Below are positions 1 through 42,750 of a DNA stretch of 44,306 nucleotides, piece by piece (the first letter of the stretch is position 1; each line of letters opens with the position of its first letter). This DNA is from Candidatus Thiosymbion oneisti (GTDB lineage: Bacteria > Pseudomonadota > Gammaproteobacteria > Chromatiales > Chromatiaceae): NCBI RefSeq assembly GCF_900092655.1, contig NZ_FLUY01000766.1, positions 1-44,306 of the forward strand. Direction: 5' to 3'. The position numbers and the translations under genes are program-made. The notes beneath the pieces were generated by a model. That model did not search any database, was not told the DNA's origin, and saw only the letters and a list, made by a program, of their open reading frames with translations.

Positions 1-75
1 CCGGGAGAGGGGTTGGGGAGAGGGGATCAAAAAGATGAATCGCGCTACTTTTTCACTTATAAGTTTACCACTACC
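1..75 (+). repeat. Right part of a GGTAGTGGT-ended MITE (family 2), cut by the window edge
   Basis: The sequence carries the G-rich block GGGAGAGGGGTTGGGGAGAG followed by an A-rich stretch and ends TTTACCACTACC. The same order is seen at 18286-18448 (reverse), 27240-27445 and 37808-38014. The left end lies outside the window. Confidence 0.75.
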
Positions 76-13587: not shown

Positions 13588-16500
13588 TCACCACCCGCGC
13601 CCTACCATTTTCCGGTGTTTGACGCTATCCCTACTCTTCCGCTCCTGGGTCAGGAGTTGCGCGTACTTGCGTTCCTCCTCGGCGCGCGGGGTGATAAAAA
13701 ACCGTATCTCACCGTTGATCCTGGCGGCCACCGGGATACCCTGGCGATACAGGACCCGGTTGCCGAGGATGGCGGCGACCCGCTCCCCAGGGGTAAGGAC
13801 ACCGGTGAGGTTGACCGGATCCGTGGCGCTGACGACCACCGGGGATTCAGGGCCCGGCTCGCGGTGGCGGCGCAGGGCGGCGACGGCCTCCGGGTGGGCG
13901 AATTGCTCGCCGCTGAAGCCGGTGACGAAGCGTCCGCCGCGCACCTCGCCCCTGGCCTCCAGGCGCCAATAGGCACGCAGCAGCTCGCGCCAGGGCGGCA
14001 GGCCCCGTTCGCGTTCCAGGATCCGGCGCATCACCAGGCCATAGCGTTGGATCAGCTGGTGCGCTAGTTTCTCCAGCCGGACACTCTGCGCTGCCGGCGA
14101 CTCGGGTTGGGCACCGGCGCCCGGTGTGGGCAAGGCGTCCCAGCGCCCGGCCCGGTCGATGGGGTCGATGGGGTCGATGGAGCTATTACCGCGCCGGCGG
14201 CGTGTGGTGACACTGCTTGCCGCCGGCGCGATCAGGGCACGCAGGCCGGCGAAGCCGTCCGCGGTGACCCGGCCGGCGGCCACCAGCTCACCGAGGGCGG
14301 TTGTGACCTCGGTACGCAACCGGCCGCTGTCGCTCACCAGATCGGCGAAGAAGCGGGCGCCGCGGGTCTGGAGCAGATCCAGCAGCAGCTCAGCGCGGGA
14401 CGAGAGTCCGCTGGCCTCTGCCGGGCCGTCCGCTTGCCATAGGGCAACCGTCTCGCGGCGCAGAATAGCGATGGGGGTGGTGCGTATCGGGGTCTTACCC
14501 CCCTGGCCCGGATGCAGTCTGAGCCAGAGATAGCGACCGCTGACCGTCAGGCTATCGAGCAGATCCGGGGTGTAGGCGGCAATGCGTGCAGGCAGGACCT
14601 CGGCCTCCCAAGCGGCGGCGGGGATGCTGAAGCCGGCGAGCCGGTCGAGCACGGCGCCGGTGCCCTCGATACCCTCTACCCGGTTGCCGGCCAGGCCCTG
14701 CCAGTGGAGCAGGAAGCGCATGTAGGCCGCCGGGCTCACGGGGGCGATCGCCTTGCGCAGTCCCTCCACCGTATAGCGGTTGATCCGCGCCAGCAGTCGG
14801 CGCTCGCACCATTGCTCGCCGGCCAGGTCCGGGTCGAAGCGGCCGCGCACGGCAAAGCCTTCCTGCTCCAGCGCCGCCAGGGCCTGCTCCAGGTCACTCA
14901 CGGGCAGATCCAGCGGGCGGGCGAGATCCGCGGCCCGGACCGGTCCCAGGCACTCCAGGCGGCTACGGATGACTTCACGCAGGGCGTGATCCCGGTCCGC
15001 AGGGAGGGTGTCGCAAAAGGCATCGGTCACCTTTCGATCCCTTCTCCCTAGATCCCTCGCCTGCTCGGGACAGGCTCCCTCTCCCTGGGGGGAGGATGTC
15101 GCAAAAAATGACGCTCTTTGTAGGATGCGGTGAGCCGCCAGGGACGGCGGCGAACCGCATCGATGGATGGCGGTGTGTTCCACCAAGTTGGGCATGGCAC
15201 TATCCAACGATGCGGTTCGCGGCCTACCCGCCCCGTCCCTGGGGCGGGGCAGGCGCTCACCACATCCTACGGGCTCGCGCAGGGCGCTGTCTCGATCCCC
15301 TCTCCCCAACCCCTCTCCCGGTGGGAGAAGGGCTTTTGTGACCCGCTCCGCGGGAAACGGGATGCTCGATGGGATGCCGGCGACGATGGTTGGATCCAGG
15401 GGACAGACGGCGGCCAGCTCGGGCAGCCGTTCGGTGGCACACAGGATGACCGTGCCCCTCGGTATCTCCAGACGCACCGCGCGCTGCTCCGCGGCGAGCC
15501 GGGCAAAAAAACCCGTGCCGGCGCCCAGCTCGTCCCAGGTCAGGAATCCGGCCAGCAACAAGGCGTCGTGGAGTTCGTCCGGGTCAGTAATACTCGGCCA
15601 GGCCTGCTCGCGTATCTTGGCCACGGCGGCCGGGTCCGGACGGGCGAGCCGCGCGGCTTGGTCCTGGTCGATCAGACCCCGGGTACGAACAGCCAGGGTG
15701 CGCCGCTCCTCGGCGGGAGTGTCGTCGAGAAAGGCGTAGGGACGCGCGCCGATGACCTCTTCGGCCAGGGGCGAGGGCGCGGCCAGGTCGCGGGCGATCA
15801 CCTCGACCGCGCCGGACTCGATGCGCGCAAACAGGCGTTCCAGGCCTGCGGTATCCATGACCTCGGTGAGGCAGTCCCCCAGGGTTTGAGTGACCAGGGG
15901 ATGATCCGGGATCTCGCGCTCACCCTGGATGTTTTCGAGGCACGCGAGCTGGTCGGGAAAGATGAGCGCCACCAAATCCTCGGCCGCGGAGCGTTGGAAC
16001 TGGGGCGGCACCTTGCTGCCGCCGCGGTAGCGTCGTACCGCCAGGGCGGTAGTAGCGTTCCAGCGCCAGTGGGTGCCGAACAAGGGGACATCGAGCAGGG
16101 CCTGGGTCAGCAGCCGGTGCACCGTATCGCTCTTGAGGAAATGTTGAATGTCTTCCAGGGCAAAGCTGTGCACGGCGCCCAGGGAGAGGATGATACAGTC
16201 GTCCAGCGCCGCGGCCTGGAGCTCGAAATTGAAGGTGCGACAGAACCGCTTGCGCAGGGCCAGCCCCCAGGCACGATTGAGGCGCGAGCCGTAGGTCGAG
16301 TGCACCACCAGGTGCATATCGCCGACCTCGTCGAAGAAGCGCTCGAGGACGATCCGGTCCTGGGTGGGCAGCAGGCCCAGGGCCGCCTGGGCGGCCCCGT
16401 AATAGACCAACAATTGGTCGGCTGCCGCGGGCTCCAGGCCATAGGTATCCAGGAGCCAGGCCCGGGCCTGGTCAACCCCCGCCTCCAGCCGCTCCGCAAT

Positions 16501-18285: not shown

Positions 18286-18448
18286 GGTAGTGGTAAATTT
18301 TTAAGTGGTAGCGTAGAAGGGTTCATTATGCTCCATCTCTTTTTTGATCCCCTCTCCCCAGCCCTCTCCCGGAGGGAGAGGGAGTGGCGCGTGGCGTGCC
18401 CAACACGCCGCTAGTGGCTATGCTTCTATTTAGACCTTAACCACTACC
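18286..18448 (-). repeat. GGTAGTGGT-ended MITE (family 2), complete copy
   Basis: It begins GGTAGTGGTAAATTTTTAAG and ends CTTAACCACTACC, an imperfect terminal inverted repeat. Inside is the inverted G-rich block CCCTCTCCCGGAGGGAGAGGG and a GTGCCCAACACGCCGC segment. The flanks CAATTCTG and CAATCTG may be an imperfect target duplication. It lies between lhr and the OmpA-type gene, which are divergently transcribed. Confidence 0.75.
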
Positions 18449-19301: not shown

Positions 19302-19480
19302 ATGATTTGGCGTTGTTTGGAGGGAAAAAATCCCTCCTGCGTCGGGACAGGGTTTGACGGGTTGCGTTCGACGCCTAACGGCTTGTCGATCTCCTTCGGT
19401 GTCCGTGCCGGCGTCTTAACGCAACCTACGCCCAGATTACCCCCCGCGCTGCCTGTATGCGCGGACCTCGCTTTTTTGTG
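19293..19480 (+). repeat. Family 1 repeat, copy B (3'-truncated)
   Basis: It starts CAATCCTGAATGATTTGGCG, contains GTTGCGTTCGACGCC and GTCTTAACGCAACCTACGCC, and fades after GCGGACCTCGC. The right half seen in the copies at 35863 and 39493 is absent. The rest of 19481-19691 shows no gene. Confidence 0.75.
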
Positions 19481-23787: not shown

Positions 23788-24048
23788 GTTCCTGAATTAT
23801 TTGGCGCGGCCTGGAGGACCGGACGTGTTGGGTTACGGCGCGTTCGACACCGTGCCCTCCGCGGCGTTTCTCCGTGCGCCTAACCCAACCTACACCCGAC
23901 GCGAGGTCGGCGCGGACCGGCAACGCAGGGGTAATATGGGTGTAGGTTGCGTTAAGACGCCGGCACTGACTTGGCAGACGATCAGCAAGCCTTGGTGCGT
24001 CGAACGCAACACGTCAAACCCTGTCCCGACGCAGGTCGGTTCCGTTGG
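23788..24048 (-). repeat. Family 1 repeat, copy C
   Basis: It contains CCTAACCCAACCTACACCC, then GGGTGTAGGTTGCGTTAAGACG and TCGAACGCAACACGTCAAACC in reverse orientation. The plus-strand left end reads CCTGAATTATTTGGCGCGG, like the forward start of other copies, so both ends carry the terminal word. Confidence 0.7.
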
Positions 24049-27251: not shown

Positions 27252-27445
27252 AGTTCCAGGATAGTGCCCTGCCCAACATGGTATGGGACACGCCGCCATC
27301 CATTGATGTGGTTCGCCGCCGTCCCTGGCGGCTCACCGCATCCTACGGAGGGCGTCATCTTTTGCGACACCCTCTCCGGGAGAGGGGTTGGGGAGAGGAG
27401 ATCGAAATGAACCTCTCTACTTTGACAACTTATAAATTCACCATC
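27240..27445 (+). repeat. Composite MITE: family 3 hairpin plus family 2 right end
   Basis: It starts near GGGTAAATTAAAG and contains GGACACGCCGCCATCCATTG, a family 3 hairpin (27304-27346), TTTTGCGACACCC, the G-rich block GGGAGAGGGGTTGGGGAGAG, and ends TAAATTCACCATCACC. The word order is the same as in the lhr insert. It ends nine bases before the yciB start codon. Confidence 0.72.
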
Positions 27446-32353: not shown

Positions 32354-32540
32354 CAATCCTGAATGATTTGGCGTTGTCCGGAGGGAAAAGATCCCTCCTG
32401 CGTCGGGACAGGGTTTGACGTGTTGCGTTGCGACGCTCAAAGGCTCGCTGATCGTCTGCCAGGTCAGTGCCGGCGTCTTAACGCAACCTACACCCACATT
32501 ACCCCCGCGCGGCCTGTGTGTCTCGCACGCAGACAGCACC
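32354..32540 (+). repeat. Family 1 repeat, copy D (3'-truncated)
   Basis: CAATCCTGAATGATTTGGCG at the left, GTTTGACGTGTTGCGTTGCG and GTCTTAACGCAACCTACACC inside. It shares the extra segment TCCCTCCTGCGTCGGGACAG with copy B. It ends near CGCACGCAGACAG. Confidence 0.75.
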
Positions 32541-34497: not shown

Positions 34498-34608
34498 ATC
34501 AGCGAACGCCTCTTGCCGGGGCCGAAGAGCAGACAGGGCACCGAACGGTGTCCCGCAACGGGTCTGACGGTTAAAATCATATCCCCCTGCCGGAGGGCTT
34601 GTCCAAAA

Positions 34609-35850
34609 ATGAAAACCTTATTCATTAAAATTCTGATTTTTCTGGTGGTACCCGTTCTGGCGTTTGACATCATCTCATTCTGGCTCCTGCCGACCGGATA
34701 TGGGTTTCAGTTCAGTCAATACCGCCGGGATCCGCAGCCGAAGGTTGCGGGTCGCTACCGTTATCCTAAGGATTACTTCGTCAAACACCCTCAACGCGGG
34801 TTCGATATCGGGACCAACAGGCAGACATACCACTGGGTAGAGGGTGTCACCTACCCCATATGGTCGAACTCCATCGGTTGCTTCGATAGGGAGTATACTC
34901 GGTACGATCCCTACGTTTACTTCGCGGGAGACAGTCTCACCTGGGGGTATACGCCGTTCGAGGAAAAATTCGGCACGCTCATCGAAAAAATGACCGGTGT
35001 CCGTATATTGAAGTGCGGGGTTACCCATACCGGTCAGCGCCACCAACACCAAAAGTTCATCGAAATCGTCCAACAAATCGGCCACCTGCCGCAAGCACTC
35101 TTTGTCTTCTATCACTGGAACGATGTTGCCAACGACCATGTTCATCCGCACTCGACGGTCATCGACGGTTGGCAGGTCAATAACATCTCTATTGATAAAG
35201 ATTACCGATTGACACGGCATACGGACCAGGAATTGGCGCAGAAAATCGTCCTTAACCTGAAGCGACATGCGGAGGAAAAACCGGTCACTTGGAGGCGGCG
35301 GATTCTGAACGTCTTGATGCGCTATTCGTTAACGGTAAACCTGATAAATTCGCTAGCGAAACAGGTGGCCAAGATAGGGCAACCCGACGCCGCCCCGAGC
35401 ACTACGCCTGTGCTCAGGAACATCCATACCCACCTGTGCCGGGCAAAGGTTTCGAATAGGGACATCTATGCCCTCATGTGCCTGGCTCCGAGTGAAGAAG
35501 GCTTCTGGTTTTCCGATAATCCCATAGCGCGGGAGAATAAATCCGCACTGCTCGATTTTCGCGATTTCGCCCAACGCAACGACCTACTGCTCGTCGTCGC
35601 GTTAATGCCGGTGGGACCAGGGGATGACCCCCGGGGAGGGGATGGGTTAAATACGGAGCACTATCGGGAAGTGCGTGATTTTCTGGACGATAAGGGTATC
35701 CGCTTCGTCGATCTTACCCTCCGTTTCCGCGCGAGAGGGTTGACGGCAAGCGACCTATACTGGAAAGAAGATCCCCACCTCAACCCTGCCGGAAACCGTG
35801 CGGTTGCGGAAATCCTGATCGAGGAGTTTCCGCAGCTGTTTTCAAAATAA
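34609..35850 (+). CDS. SGNH/GDSL-type hydrolase-like membrane-anchored protein, copy 1
   Basis: 413 residues from the ATG at 34609; the earlier in-frame start lacks support. One N-terminal membrane segment (FIKILIFLVVPVLAFDIISFWLL) anchors a large periplasmic domain. SGNH blocks can be seen: FAGDSLTWGY (nucleophile Ser), [10 protein letters not shown] (Gly), YHWNDVAND (Asn) and a C-terminal EDPHLNPAGNR with the Asp-His pair. The layout resembles AlgX/AlgJ-like or other carbohydrate O-acyl esterases/acyltransferases, but the family is not named with certainty. A close paralogue lies at 36514-37752. It is followed by a family 1 repeat and then the decayed gatB end. Confidence 0.72.
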   Translation: MKTLFIKILIFLVVPVLAFDIISFWLLPTGYGFQFSQYRRDPQPKVAGRYRYPKDYFVKHPQRGFDIGTNRQTYHWVEGVTYPIWSNSIGCFDREYTRYDPYVYFAGDSLTWGYTPFEEKFGTLIEKMTGVRILKCGVTHTGQRHQHQKFIEIVQQIGHLPQALFVFYHWNDVANDHVHPHSTVIDGWQVNNISIDKDYRLTRHTDQELAQKIVLNLKRHAEEKPVTWRRRILNVLMRYSLTVNLINSLAKQVAKIGQPDAAPSTTPVLRNIHTHLCRAKVSNRDIYALMCLAPSEEGFWFSDNPIARENKSALLDFRDFAQRNDLLLVVALMPVGPGDDPRGGDGLNTEHYREVRDFLDDKGIRFVDLTLRFRARGLTASDLYWKEDPHLNPAGNRAVAEILIEEFPQLFSK

Positions 35851-35862
35851 CCCATCCTTAAG

Positions 35863-36083
35863 CAATCCTGAATGATTTGGCGCTGTCAAGTTTGACGTGT
35901 TGCGTTCGACGCCCAACGGCTCGTTGGTCTACGGCTAGGCCAGTGCCAGCGTCTTAACGCAACCTACACCCACATTATCCCCCGCGCGGTCTCACGCGCG
36001 GACCTCGCCTTAAGTGTATAGTTGCGTTAAGCCGCACGCGCAAACGCCTGGGGGAACAACAGGGCGTAACGCAACACGATGCT
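35863..36083 (+). repeat. Family 1 repeat, copy E (full length)
   Basis: CAATCCTGAATGATTTGGCG, GACGTGTTGCGTTCGACGCC, GTCTTAACGCAACCTACACC, then AAGTGTATAGTTGCGTTAAG and the right end GGCGTAACGCAACACGATGC. It lies in the spacer of duplication copy 1; copy 2 lacks it at the same place. Confidence 0.8.
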
Positions 36084-36123
36084 AGGATCCGTTTTAACCA
36101 GACAGCTTCTAAGATTTTAAGCT

Positions 36124-36179
36124 GGTAGGCTGGTCCGTAAAAGCTGGGTTTCGTTCCTCAACCCAGCCGACTGCCTACC
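36124..36179. repeat. REP-like hairpin
   Basis: GGTAGGCTGG...AAGCTGGGTT pairs with AACCCAGCC...GCCTACC around the loop TCGTTCCTC. A typical REP-type palindrome, lying between the family 1 copy and the gatB fragment. Confidence 0.65.
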
Positions 36180-36257
36180 ATGGCCTACGGCCCTTTTTTA
36201 GACAGGCTCTCAGCCTCATTATTGAAGCGGCAGGCAGTCTACCCTGACGGGATTCGC

Positions 36258-36360
36258 TCATGCCCTGAGCTTCTCTTTCAGCAGTGCATTGACCTGTTGG
36301 GGATTGGCCTTGCCCTTGGTGGCCTTCATGATCCGACCGACGGAGCAACCAAACACCTGA
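36258..36360 (-). pseudogene. gatB: gatB 3'-end fragment
   Basis: About 100 bases encode [22 protein letters not shown] and the stop on the minus strand, nearly identical to the C-terminus of the intact gatB (38022-38124). It breaks off upstream of residue ~35 from the end. It is the leftover of a tandem duplication and not a gene. Confidence 0.88.
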
Positions 36361-36513
36361 GGCGAATCGCCCGTGTTCCAATCATTCCGGGATGCCCATA
36401 GGGAGGCGCCCCGAGGATCCGCGTAGCGGACGCTCGGCGATCGGCAGCCGGCGACTGGAAGCCGGCAGCAACTTGTCAATTGGATGAGTATAAATGGCAT
36501 TGGGAACTGTAGG

Positions 36514-37752
36514 ATGAAAACCTTATTCATTAACATTCTGATTTTTCTGGCGCTCGTTCTGGCGTTTGACACCATCTCATTCTGGCTTCTGCCGGCCAGG
36601 TATGTATCTCAGCTCAAGGAATACCGCCGGGATTCGCGGCCGGAGGTTGCGGGTCGCAATCGCTATCCCAGGCATTACTTCGTTAAACACCCTCAACGCG
36701 GGTTCGATATCGGGACAAACAGACAGGCATACCACTGGGTAGAGGGTGTCACCTACCCCATATGGTCGAACTCCATCGGTTGCTTCGATAGGGAGCATAC
36801 TCGGTACGATTCCTATGTTTACTTCGCGGGAGACAGCTTCACCTGGGGGTATACGCCGTTCGGGGAAAAATTCGGCACCCTCATCGAAAAAACGACCGGT
36901 GTTCGTATATTGAAGTGTGGGGTTACCCATACCGGCCAGCGCCACCAGTACCAAAAGTTCATCGAAATCGCCGAACAAATCGGCTACCTGCCGCAAGCAC
37001 TCTTCGTCTTCTATTACTGGAACGATGTTGCTAACGACTATGCTCACCCACACTCGACGGTCATCGACGGTTGGCTGGTCAATAGCGTATCCATTGATAA
37101 AAATTACCGATTGGTACGGCACACGGACCAGGAATTGGCGCAGCAAGTCGCCCGTAGACTGAAGCGACATGCAGAGAGAAGCTCGGCCGCTCGGGGGAAG
37201 CGGATCAAGGATGTCCTGAAGCGCTATTCGTTAACGGTAAATCTGATAAAGTCGTTAAGGAAACAGGTGGCCGAGATAGGGCAACCCGATGCCGCCGCGC
37301 TCACCACGCCTGGGTTTAGGAACCGCTATGCTCTCATGTGCAAGAATCGATGGGGTTTAGGGGACATCTATGCCCTCATGTGCCTGGCTACGAGTGAAAA
37401 AGGCTCCTGGTTTTCCGATAATCCCATGGCGCAGGAGAATAAATCCGCACTGCTCGATTTTCGTGATTTCGCCGAACGCAACGACCTACCGCTCATCGTC
37501 GTGTTGATTCCAGTGGGACCACTGGATGATCCCTGGAGAGGGGACGGGTTAAATACGGAGCACTATCGGGAAGTGCGTGATTTTCTGGACGATCAGGGCA
37601 TCCGCTTCGTCGATCTTACCCCCCGTTTCCACGCGAGAGGGCTGACGGCAAGCGAGATATACTGGAAAGGAAATGCCCACCTCGGCCCTGGGGGAAACCG
37701 TGCGGTTGCGGAAATCCTGATCGAGGAGTTTCCGCAGCTGTTTCCGAAATAA
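36514..37752 (+). CDS. SGNH/GDSL-type hydrolase-like membrane-anchored protein, copy 2
   Basis: 412 residues from the ATG at 36514, three bases after AGG. It is a close paralogue of 34609-35850, collinear throughout, with long identical tracts (for example [13 protein letters not shown] and [18 protein letters not shown]). The N-terminal membrane segment, [20 protein letters not shown] and YYWNDVAND are kept. The C-terminal block reads [12 protein letters not shown], so the Asp of copy 1 (EDPH) is replaced by Asn (GNAH). If that Asp is catalytic, as in SGNH enzymes, copy 2 may be inactive or changed in function. The segment after [10 protein letters not shown] also differs from copy 1. Confidence 0.72.
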
Positions 37753-37807
37753 CCCCCTCCTCGGCCTTATTGAAGCGGCAGGCAGTCTACCCTGATAAGA
37801 TTCGCTC

Positions 37808-38014
37808 GGTGGTGGTTAAGGTTTGAATGGTGTGTTGGGCACGCCGCCGTCCGCGGCCGGTGCATTCCGCACGCAGACAGGCTGGCGGCTTTGCCCAACC
37901 TACGCGTTTTGTTCCCTCTCCCTCCGGGAGAGGGTCGGGGAGAGGGGATCCAAAAAGAAACTGGGAGTGGTTAATGAACTTCTGTACTCGACCACTTAAA
38001 AATTTACCGCTACC
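37808..38014 (+). mobile_element. 207-bp MITE (family 2) with 9-bp target duplication
   Basis: The element begins GGTGGTGGTTAAGG and ends TTTACCGCTACC, imperfect inverted ends. It is flanked by GATTCGCTC at 37799-37807 and 38015-38023. The paralogous site at 36250-36260 has a single GATTCGCTC and no insert. Inside are a GTGTTGGGCACGCCGCC to TTGCCCAACCTACGCG inverted segment and the G-rich block CTCCGGGAGAGGG. The second target copy overlaps the gatB stop codon. Confidence 0.88.
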
Positions 38015-38021
38015 GATTCGC

Positions 38022-39455
38022 TCATGCCCTGAGCTTCTCTTTCAGCAGCGCATTGACCTGTTGGGGATTGGCCTTGCCCTTGGTGGCCTGCATGACCTGG
38101 CCGACGAAGAAACCGAACACCTTCTCCTTGCCGCCGCGGTACTGCTCCACCTGCGCCGGGTTGGTTGCCAGGATGTCTTCGATCACCGCCTCGATGGCCC
38201 CGGCGTCGGTGATCTGCTTAAGGCCACGAGCCGCAATGACCGCGTCCGCATCGCCCTCGCCGTTCCAGATGGCCTCGAACACCTGTTTGGCGAGCTTACC
38301 GGAGATCGTCCGGTCTTGAATGCGTTTGATCAGCCCCGCCAGCATTGGGGCACTGACCGGGCTTGCGCCGATCTCCAGGCCGGCCTTGTTCAGGGCCGCG
38401 GCCAGCTCACCGTTGACCCAATTGGCCGCCAGCTTGGGATCACCCGTGTCCTGGGCGACGCGCTCATAGTAATCCCCCAGTTCCCGGCTCAAGGTGAGCA
38501 GGTCGGCGTCGTAATCGGATAGGCCGTACTGGTCCCGGAACCGCCGGCGCCTGGCGTCCGGGAGCTCCGGCATCACCTGCGTCGCCCGCTCGATGAAATC
38601 GGCATCGATGACCAGGGGCAGTAGGTCCGGGTCCGGGAAATAGCGGTAATCGTTCGCCTCCTCCTTGGTGCGCATGGAGCGGGTCTCGCCCTGATCCGCA
38701 TCATAGAGCCGGGTCTCCTGCACCACCTGGCCACCGCCTTCGATGACATCGATCTGGCGCTCGACCTCGAAGCGGATGGCCCGCTCCAGAAAGCGGAAGG
38801 AGTTGATGTTCTTGATCTCGGTACGGGTGCCCAATTTCGCCTCGCCCTGGGGGCGTACCGAGACATTGGCGTCCACCCGAAAGGAGCCCTCCTGCATATT
38901 GCCGTCGCTGACGCCGATCCAGCGCACGATCCGGTGGATCTTCCGGGCATAGGCCACCGCCTCTTCCGGTGAGCGCATATCCGGCTCGGAGACGATCTCC
39001 AACAGGGGGGTACCGGCCCGATTCAGGTCGATGCCGGTCAGGCCGTGGAAGTCCTCATGCAGCGACTTGCCGGCGTCCTCTTCCAGATGGGCACGGGTGA
39101 CACCGATCTCCTTGATCGCACCATCGTCCAGTAGGATCCGTACCCGCCCCTTACCGACCACCGGCAGCTCGTACTGGCTGATCTGATAGCCCTTGGGCAG
39201 GTCCGGGTAGAAATAATTCTTGCGTGCGAAAATGGAGCGCTCCGCGATCTCAGCCTCGATGGCCTTGCCGAAGCGCACCGCCAGAGTCACGGCCTCTTCA
39301 TTGAGCACCGGCAGCACGCCGGGCAATCCCAGGTCCACCGCACAGGCCCGGGTGTTCGGCACGGCACCGAAATCAGTCGGCGCGCCGGAAAAGATTTTCG
39401 ACTTGGTCGCGAGCTGGGTGTGAATCTCCAGCCCGATGACAGTTTCCCATTGCAT
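38022..39455 (-). CDS. gatB: Aspartyl/glutamyl-tRNA(Asn/Gln) amidotransferase subunit B
   Basis: 477 residues, standard length. [26 protein letters not shown] is the diagnostic N-terminus; also [41 protein letters not shown] and the C-terminal YqeY-like domain ending in [16 protein letters not shown]. GatB binds mischarged Glu-tRNA(Gln) or Asp-tRNA(Asn), and its kinase activity phosphorylates the acyl group before transamidation with ammonia from GatA. gatA and gatC are not in the window downstream, so gatB is here separate or last in its operon. A MITE has inserted at its stop codon. Confidence 0.95.
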
Positions 39456-39492
39456 CGTCTGAGCCTATCTTGAAGATTTCAGGAGCTGATAG

Positions 39493-39726
39493 CAATCCTG
39501 AATGATTCGGCGTTGTCGGAGGATTCGACGTGTTGCATTCGACGCACCAAGGCGCGCTAATCGTCCGCCGGGTCGGTGCCGACGTCTTACGTCTTAACGC
39601 AATCGACACCCACATCACCCCCCGCGCGGCCTGTCCGTGCGGACCTCGGGTGTAGGTTGCGTTAGCCGCGCCAGAAAACGTCCGGGGGAGTACGTTCTTG
39701 AACGCGGCGTAACGCAACACGACGCC
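39493..39726 (+). repeat. Family 1 repeat, copy F (full length)
   Basis: CAATCCTGAATGATTCGGCG, GACGTGTTGCATTCGACGC, GTCTTAACGCAATCGACACC, then GGGTGTAGGTTGCGTTAGCC and the right end GGCGTAACGCAACACGACGC. It lies upstream of gatB. The remaining 39727-40014 contains no gene I can support. Confidence 0.8.
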
Positions 39727-42499: not shown

Positions 42500-42586
42500 G
42501 GCGGGGACAAGATCGGCATCGGGTAAAAAAGAGTCGTAAGTTTACCACAGGGATTCGTCCACCAGACGTCGGCGCCTCTCCATTAG

Positions 42587-42750
42587 CAATCCTGAATGAT
42601 TTGGCGCTGTCTGGGGGACCGGACCTGTTGCGTTGCGACGCTCAAAGGGCTGCTGATCTCCTGCGGCGCCGATGCCGGCGTCTTAACACAACCTACCCAT
42701 GGGGCGCCCGCCGTGCTCCTGGCCCGCGCGGACCTCACTTTGAGCAATAA
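42587..42750 (+). repeat. Family 1 repeat, copy G (3'-truncated)
   Basis: CAATCCTGAATGATTTGGCG, GGACCTGTTGCGTTGCGACG and GTCTTAACACAACCTACCC, ending near GCGCGGACCTCAC. It lies upstream of waaA. Confidence 0.75.

Follow-up and report, generated by a model that had tools for sequence, protein, structure and literature searches.

A 207-bp MITE beside gatB in Candidatus Thiosymbion oneisti and its probable IS1-family parentage

In the 44,306-bp stretch of Candidatus Thiosymbion oneisti DNA analysed here (contig NZ_FLUY01000766.1; hereafter the window), a 207-bp insert lies next to the stop codon of gatB, bounded on either side by a copy of GATTCGCTC, which raises the question of what the insert is and what kind of mobile element gave rise to it. 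The relevant features are listed by window position.

1..75: third family copy, truncated by the contig start so that a single end remains, at 75; this end resembles those of the 138-140-bp copies
18286..18448, minus strand: second complete family copy, 163 bp, with the imperfect duplication CAATTCTG / CAATCTGA
36251..36259: single GATTCGCTC of the empty paralogous site, with flanking homology at 36219-36259 and 36251-36358
37799..37807: left target-site duplication, GATTCGCTC
37808..38014, plus strand: the MITE, 207 bp
37808-37829: all that the MITE keeps of its left end
37834..37904: internal palindrome GTTGGGC...GCCCAACCTACG, present in the larger copies; the greater part of it is missing from the 163-171-bp copies
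37914..37946: REP-like internal palindrome CCCTCTCCCTCCGGGAGAGGGTCGGGGAGAGGG, which occurs also in genomes without exact MITE ends
approximately 37970-38014: right end of the MITE, which, read on the reverse strand, resembles IS1-family 5' ends
38015..38023: right target-site duplication, GATTCGCTC, which shares two bases with the gatB stop codon (38022-38024, minus strand)
38022..39455, minus strand: gatB, intact, with GatB_N and GatB_Yqey domains

The insert is a real MITE insertion for which a good empty site is available. Across both strands of the window, GATTCGCTC occurs three times, at 36251, 37799 and 38015, and nowhere else. The window contains a tandem duplication in which two copies of an ORF (34513-35850 and 36484-37752; 87.5% identical in a DNA alignment of 1,248 columns) are each followed by a gatB tail, with gatB whole only in the second copy. 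The duplicated ORF shows a weak GDSL-lipase-like match, which at 20.4 bits falls under the cut-off of 32.9. At the paralogous site at 36251, the 9-mer is present once and the 207-bp insert is missing. The left flank of this site (36219-36259) is 92.7% identical to 37767-37807, and the right flank, which is the first gatB tail (36251-36358), is 92.6% identical to 38015-38122. A given 9-bp match between flanks would arise by chance with a probability of approximately 6e-6. A preliminary description of this DNA had proposed a 207-bp insert between 9-bp repeats with an empty paralogous site, which is borne out by the flank alignments and the single GATTCGCTC at 36251, and the exact element ends that it gave, GGTGGTGGTTAAGG and TTTACCGCTACC, are correct. 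Because the MITE lies 7 bp beyond the stop codon and the right 9-mer covers two bases of that codon, gatB is undamaged. A scan of 37700-38150 revealed no promoter and one terminator-like site, at 38020-38034, which is outside the MITE (shuffled sequences average 0.6).

The two copies of the tandem duplication (34513-38122) also differ in that the first has approximately 365 bp of other sequence (35853-36219) and the second approximately 12 bp. Another dispersed repeat, of the GTTGCG...CGCAACCTACA type, is found at 35861-36058 of the window, with relatives that are 77-88% alike at 32413-32512, 667-831, 23863-24019, 19352-19471, 39491-39648 and 42579-42696; no MITE ends were seen in the window alignments of this repeat.

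The MITE belongs to a large family. When searched against its own genome (G000; 4.33 Mb in 1,891 contigs), the window MITE returned 67 matches at E values up to 10, many of them partial. Using the end pattern GGTAGTGGTWAANNTNTAA with up to two mismatches, we found 139 + 148 = 287 matches in G000, versus 2 + 2 = 4 for a control that consisted of the same pattern reversed, and the genome perhaps contains approximately 140 elements if each has two ends. The sixteen full copies that we aligned have lengths of 139 bp (two copies), 163-171 bp (nine), 178, 197, 207, 264 and 276 bp, and the ends are conserved across these aligned copies. The window copy, which has imperfect terminal inverted repeats (GGTGGTGGTTAA / GGTAGCGGTAAA), resembles L002, L005 and L014 in having the internal GTTGGGC...GCCCAACCTACG segment. 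It encodes no transposase, and its 207 bp leave no room for one. Within the window, the family had been described as occurring at least three more times, which did not hold: MITE ends are found at two other places (18286-18448 and the contig start), and at 15294-15332 and 27374-27407 the match covers nothing but the internal CCCTCTCCC palindrome. Of the first 30 ends listed, five are less than or equal to 150 bp away from a contig edge, where approximately one would be expected, and the family may contribute to assembly breaks.

To define the length of the target-site duplication across the family, ends were paired mechanically over 113 loci of the own genome and the window, with G as first base, C as last base and at most three mismatches in 12. 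After removal of duplicates, 82 end pairs remained, of which 21 have a perfect 8-bp duplication, two have a perfect 9-bp duplication and 59 have no perfect duplication, the last figure not being the number of true duplication-less copies, as the 82 include nested, chance and a few divergent-end pairs. Perfect duplications of exactly 7 or 10 bp are found in none of the 82. The 9-bp cases are the window copy and L208 (gtctcctcg). Six more end pairs match at seven of eight positions, as does L013, which was excluded from the pairing because its last base is T, and L005, L011, L012, L014 and L025 are clear copies without a duplication. The chance of an 8-bp match is approximately 2e-5 per pair. 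Pairs with perfect duplications span 112 to 299 bp, with sizes that include 112-113 and 126 bp. The A+T content of the 21 8-bp targets is 47%, versus 39% in the window; with both strands read, A or T occupies each middle position in 32 of 42, and the first base is C and the last G in 21 of 42. The usual duplication of the family is 8 bp, which accounts for 21 of the 23 perfect cases, and the 9 bp that had been put forward as the family length (two of the 23) is right for the window copy only as an individual case. The expectation that other copies would share the ends and carry a duplication held in part: their ends are similar and many have duplications, but these are mostly 8 bp and some clear copies have none.

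A candidate for the parent of the family is present in the same genome. G000 contains a complete IS (L149, 1439-2373) of 935 bp that is flanked by the 8-bp duplication taaggaag and encodes its transposase in one uninterrupted ORF of 255 amino acids. The transposase is assigned to the IS1 family by NCBIfam (NF033558, 192.8 bits; cut-off 100) and matches PF03400 at 85.8 bits (cut-off 24.1); Zn_ribbon_InsA, at 20.2 bits, is under its cut-off of 26.1, and the zinc domain NF050000 scores over its own cut-off. A profile search with PF03400 gave one match in G000, two in G002, none in G001 and 43 in G003, a genome of the same genus, where the 43 take in fragments and a second IS1 lineage. The ends of the G000 IS, GGTAGTGGTGATTTTTGAAG, differ from the GGTAGTGGTAAATTTTTAAG of the MITE. 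The transposase-bearing IS for which the preliminary description advised a search is present: G000 has an IS1-family element with the same kind of ends, similar rather than identical. In G003, MITE-type ends bound an element of 936 bp that has the duplication cgaaattc (L110/L175), and perfect 8-bp duplications flank IS1-family elements both in that genome (L177, gtcacagg) and in the Olavius algarvensis Gamma 3 endosymbiont (L180, cggctttt). A perfect 8-bp duplication is missing from three other copies examined with both IS ends, L114, L176 and L178. Scanning the L149 transposase across the named genomes yielded six loci, of which L178 (93%) and L182 (94% over 57 residues) are in the Candidatus Thiosymbion ectosymbiont of Catanema sp., L179 and L180 (88%) are in the Olavius algarvensis Gamma 3 endosymbiont, and the remaining two, at 27-28%, are in other genomes.

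Two further observations concern the IS1-family elements of G003. At 980-1049 of L110, close to eight consecutive A, the transposase reading frame breaks into two ORFs that overlap, a split that resembles the programmed frameshift of IS1; in the G000 copy there is one ORF. A second IS1-family lineage in this genome (L148, L151) is 905 bp long, with ends GGTAGTGTT and the 8-bp duplications catcaggt (L148) and ctaaaact (L151), and most of the compared copies are >99% identical to one another.

We also compared the MITE ends with the IS ends beyond the terminal motif. For ten chosen copies, the sequence past the first 12-14 bases was aligned to the IS ends and judged against 500 shuffles, which preserve base content only, with IS end sets of unequal size (6 and 4). 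When MITE right ends were compared with IS 5' ends, 0-5 of 500 shuffles scored as high in nine of the ten copies, including the window copy (0/500), and L007 failed (173/500). When MITE left ends were compared with IS 3' ends, 0-6 of 500 shuffles scored as high in seven of the ten copies; L019b was weak (19/500), and both L014 (299/500) and the window copy (435/500) failed. Leaving the window copy aside, eight of nine right ends and seven of nine left ends are at or below 6/500. Each end scored higher against its own IS side than against the opposite side in 19 of 20 comparisons, the sole exception being the left end of the window copy, of which no more than the first 22 bp remain ahead of the GTTGGGC segment. 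The likeness extends over the first 40-odd bp of the IS for right ends and its last 40-odd bp for left ends, where it covers the stretch around GCCAACA, which encodes the last transposase codons. Among the tested copies, a likeness to the IS 5' end is thus seen for most right ends, and to the IS 3' end for most left ends, which is what internal deletion of an IS1-family element leaves.

The distribution of the ends is narrow. Among 92 related genomes, exact MITE ends were found in G000 (64 + 64), G003 (3 + 8) and G002 (1 + 0), and in none of the remaining 89. With two mismatches allowed, G003 gave 46 + 50 matches (control 1 + 5) and G002 gave 43 + 70 (control 1 + 1), and no MITE ends were detected in G001 at this setting (control 0 + 3). 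A longer end pattern, searched in 210 genomes of the order, was found in G000 and G003 only. That G001, a member of the genus, has neither a PF03400 match nor MITE ends is consistent with the IS1 model, in one genome. The two core palindromes behave differently. The REP-like CCCTCTCCCNNNGGGAGAGGGNNNGGGNGAGGG is present in 25 of the 92 genomes, and because 22 of these lack any exact MITE end, the repeat must also exist independently of the MITE. Since GGCTTTGCCCAACCTACG, an arm of the GTTGGGC palindrome, is limited to G000 and G003, an independent origin of that palindrome is not supported.

These data bear on several other explanations of the locus. If the direct repeat were a product of chance or recombination, the insert would be a mere cluster of REP-like palindromes, and the MITE interior does indeed consist mostly of dispersed palindromes. 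However, the ends are conserved family-wide and are common to complete IS elements, and there are 23 perfect duplications of 8-9 bp; the duplication census rules this explanation out, and we regard it as scarcely credible. A precise excision of the MITE after the tandem duplication, rather than an ancestral vacancy, would likewise leave one GATTCGCTC at 36251. This account requires an additional event, and none of the three gatB downstream regions of G001, G002 and G003 has a MITE end, although these regions are seemingly not alignable to that of the window. We consider excision improbable, and an empty site that predates the insertion the better reading of 36251.

A different parent, the IS1595 family, was suggested by its 8-bp duplications and by the presence of its transposase genes in G000, where PF12762 has two matches and the stop of one IS1595 gene is 167 bp away from a MITE-like end, GATAGTGGTCAATC. 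However, related IS1595 elements (G010, G023, G026, G027, G031 and G039) have CCTGATTA-type ends, mostly CCTGATTACC, and the G000 IS1595 copy has TTTGATTACCC adjoining its stop codon. Furthermore, the IS1595 transposase is matched in 31 of the 92 genomes, and exact MITE ends occur in only three. The CCTGATTA-type terminal repeats rule out as parent the IS1595 group whose ends were traced, which covers one of the two G000 genes (the other being L072), and we judge IS1595 parentage very unlikely overall.

Based on the comparisons of ends, duplications and distribution, we conclude that the insert is very probably a non-autonomous MITE of IS1-family origin. Such a MITE would have arisen from an IS1-family element that was internally deleted with both ends retained. 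A putative IS1-family DDE transposase would then act in trans on both MITE ends, with a staggered cut at insertion that would usually be 8 bp and here 9 bp. The insertion past the gatB stop would have occurred later than the duplication of the upstream ORF and the gatB tail, and the core of the MITE may have been enlarged or exchanged with other dispersed palindromes. Because the ends of the G000 IS, GGTAGTGGTGATTTTTGAAG, differ from GGTAGTGGTAAATTTTTAAG, the mobiliser may be lost, unassembled or a sister IS.

Several known systems resemble this arrangement. Classical IS1 usually generates 9-bp duplications and has a two-ORF insA/insB arrangement. The G000 IS is similar to IS1 and ISAba3 in its IS1-type transposase with an N-terminal zinc-binding domain and its length of approximately 0.9 kb, and G000-type IS ends similarly start with GGTAGTG and are associated with 8-bp duplications. 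In contrast, the G000 IS is a single ORF and the window MITE has no transposase. In one study, ISAba3-like elements are described that have 24-bp ends, GGTGGTGTTTCAAAAAGTATGCTG (of the GGTGGTGTTT type), and bound an 8.5-kb insert flanked by 8-bp duplications (PMC6382973). The same study describes MITEAba12 of Acinetobacter, which is short and non-coding, has terminal repeats and 9-bp duplications, and shares its genome with an autonomous IS; the partner is ISAba12, related IS have ends GGCTTTGTTGC, and identity is limited to the terminal repeats (PMC6382973). The window family is alike in being short and non-coding, with terminal repeats, duplications and an IS in the same genome, whereas most copies tested here match the IS beyond the terminal repeats. 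Correia elements of Neisseria, according to a review of prokaryotic MITEs, are 204 bp long, number more than 120 copies and can serve as RNase III sites in transcripts (PMC10969869). The window MITE family shares their small size and high copy number. Correia elements have the ends TATAGTGGATTAA and the target TA, both of which are unlike those of the window MITE. By title, no report on MITEs in Candidatus Thiosymbion or on this MITE family was found, nor was a paper that brings together MITEs, the IS1 family, target-site duplications and symbionts, in searches that covered a minority of subscription journals.

The MITE is one more of a known type, from a large and fairly ordinary family; what this analysis adds is a name for the probable parent IS family and a corrected duplication length. 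A likely parent can thereby be named for a large repeat family of Candidatus Thiosymbion-type symbionts, and the gatB case provides a clean insertion together with its empty site. Both strands of the MITE fold as RNA better than shuffles do (z of -4.06 for minus and -4.92 for plus), which is expected of inverted repeats anyway and does not demonstrate a function. It is possible, though we hold the idea only tentatively, that this is a modular IS1-derived MITE family, so far of one symbiont genus, that spreads an acquired REP-like palindrome core, and that insertions near gene ends give transcripts a strong RNA hairpin, perhaps as a stabiliser of mRNA 3' ends or as a processing site.

Two other loci of the genome deserve mention. 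A pair of ends 1.8 kb apart on contig C206 was considered as an autonomous element and rejected, as its left end is that of a 113-bp MITE, which has a duplication of its own, cccaaggg; no transposase was recognised by eye among the ORFs between the ends. On contig C371 of G000, a MITE end lies 2 bp from a stop-containing fragment of an IS1595 transposase (L126, 446-909), into which a MITE has perhaps inserted.
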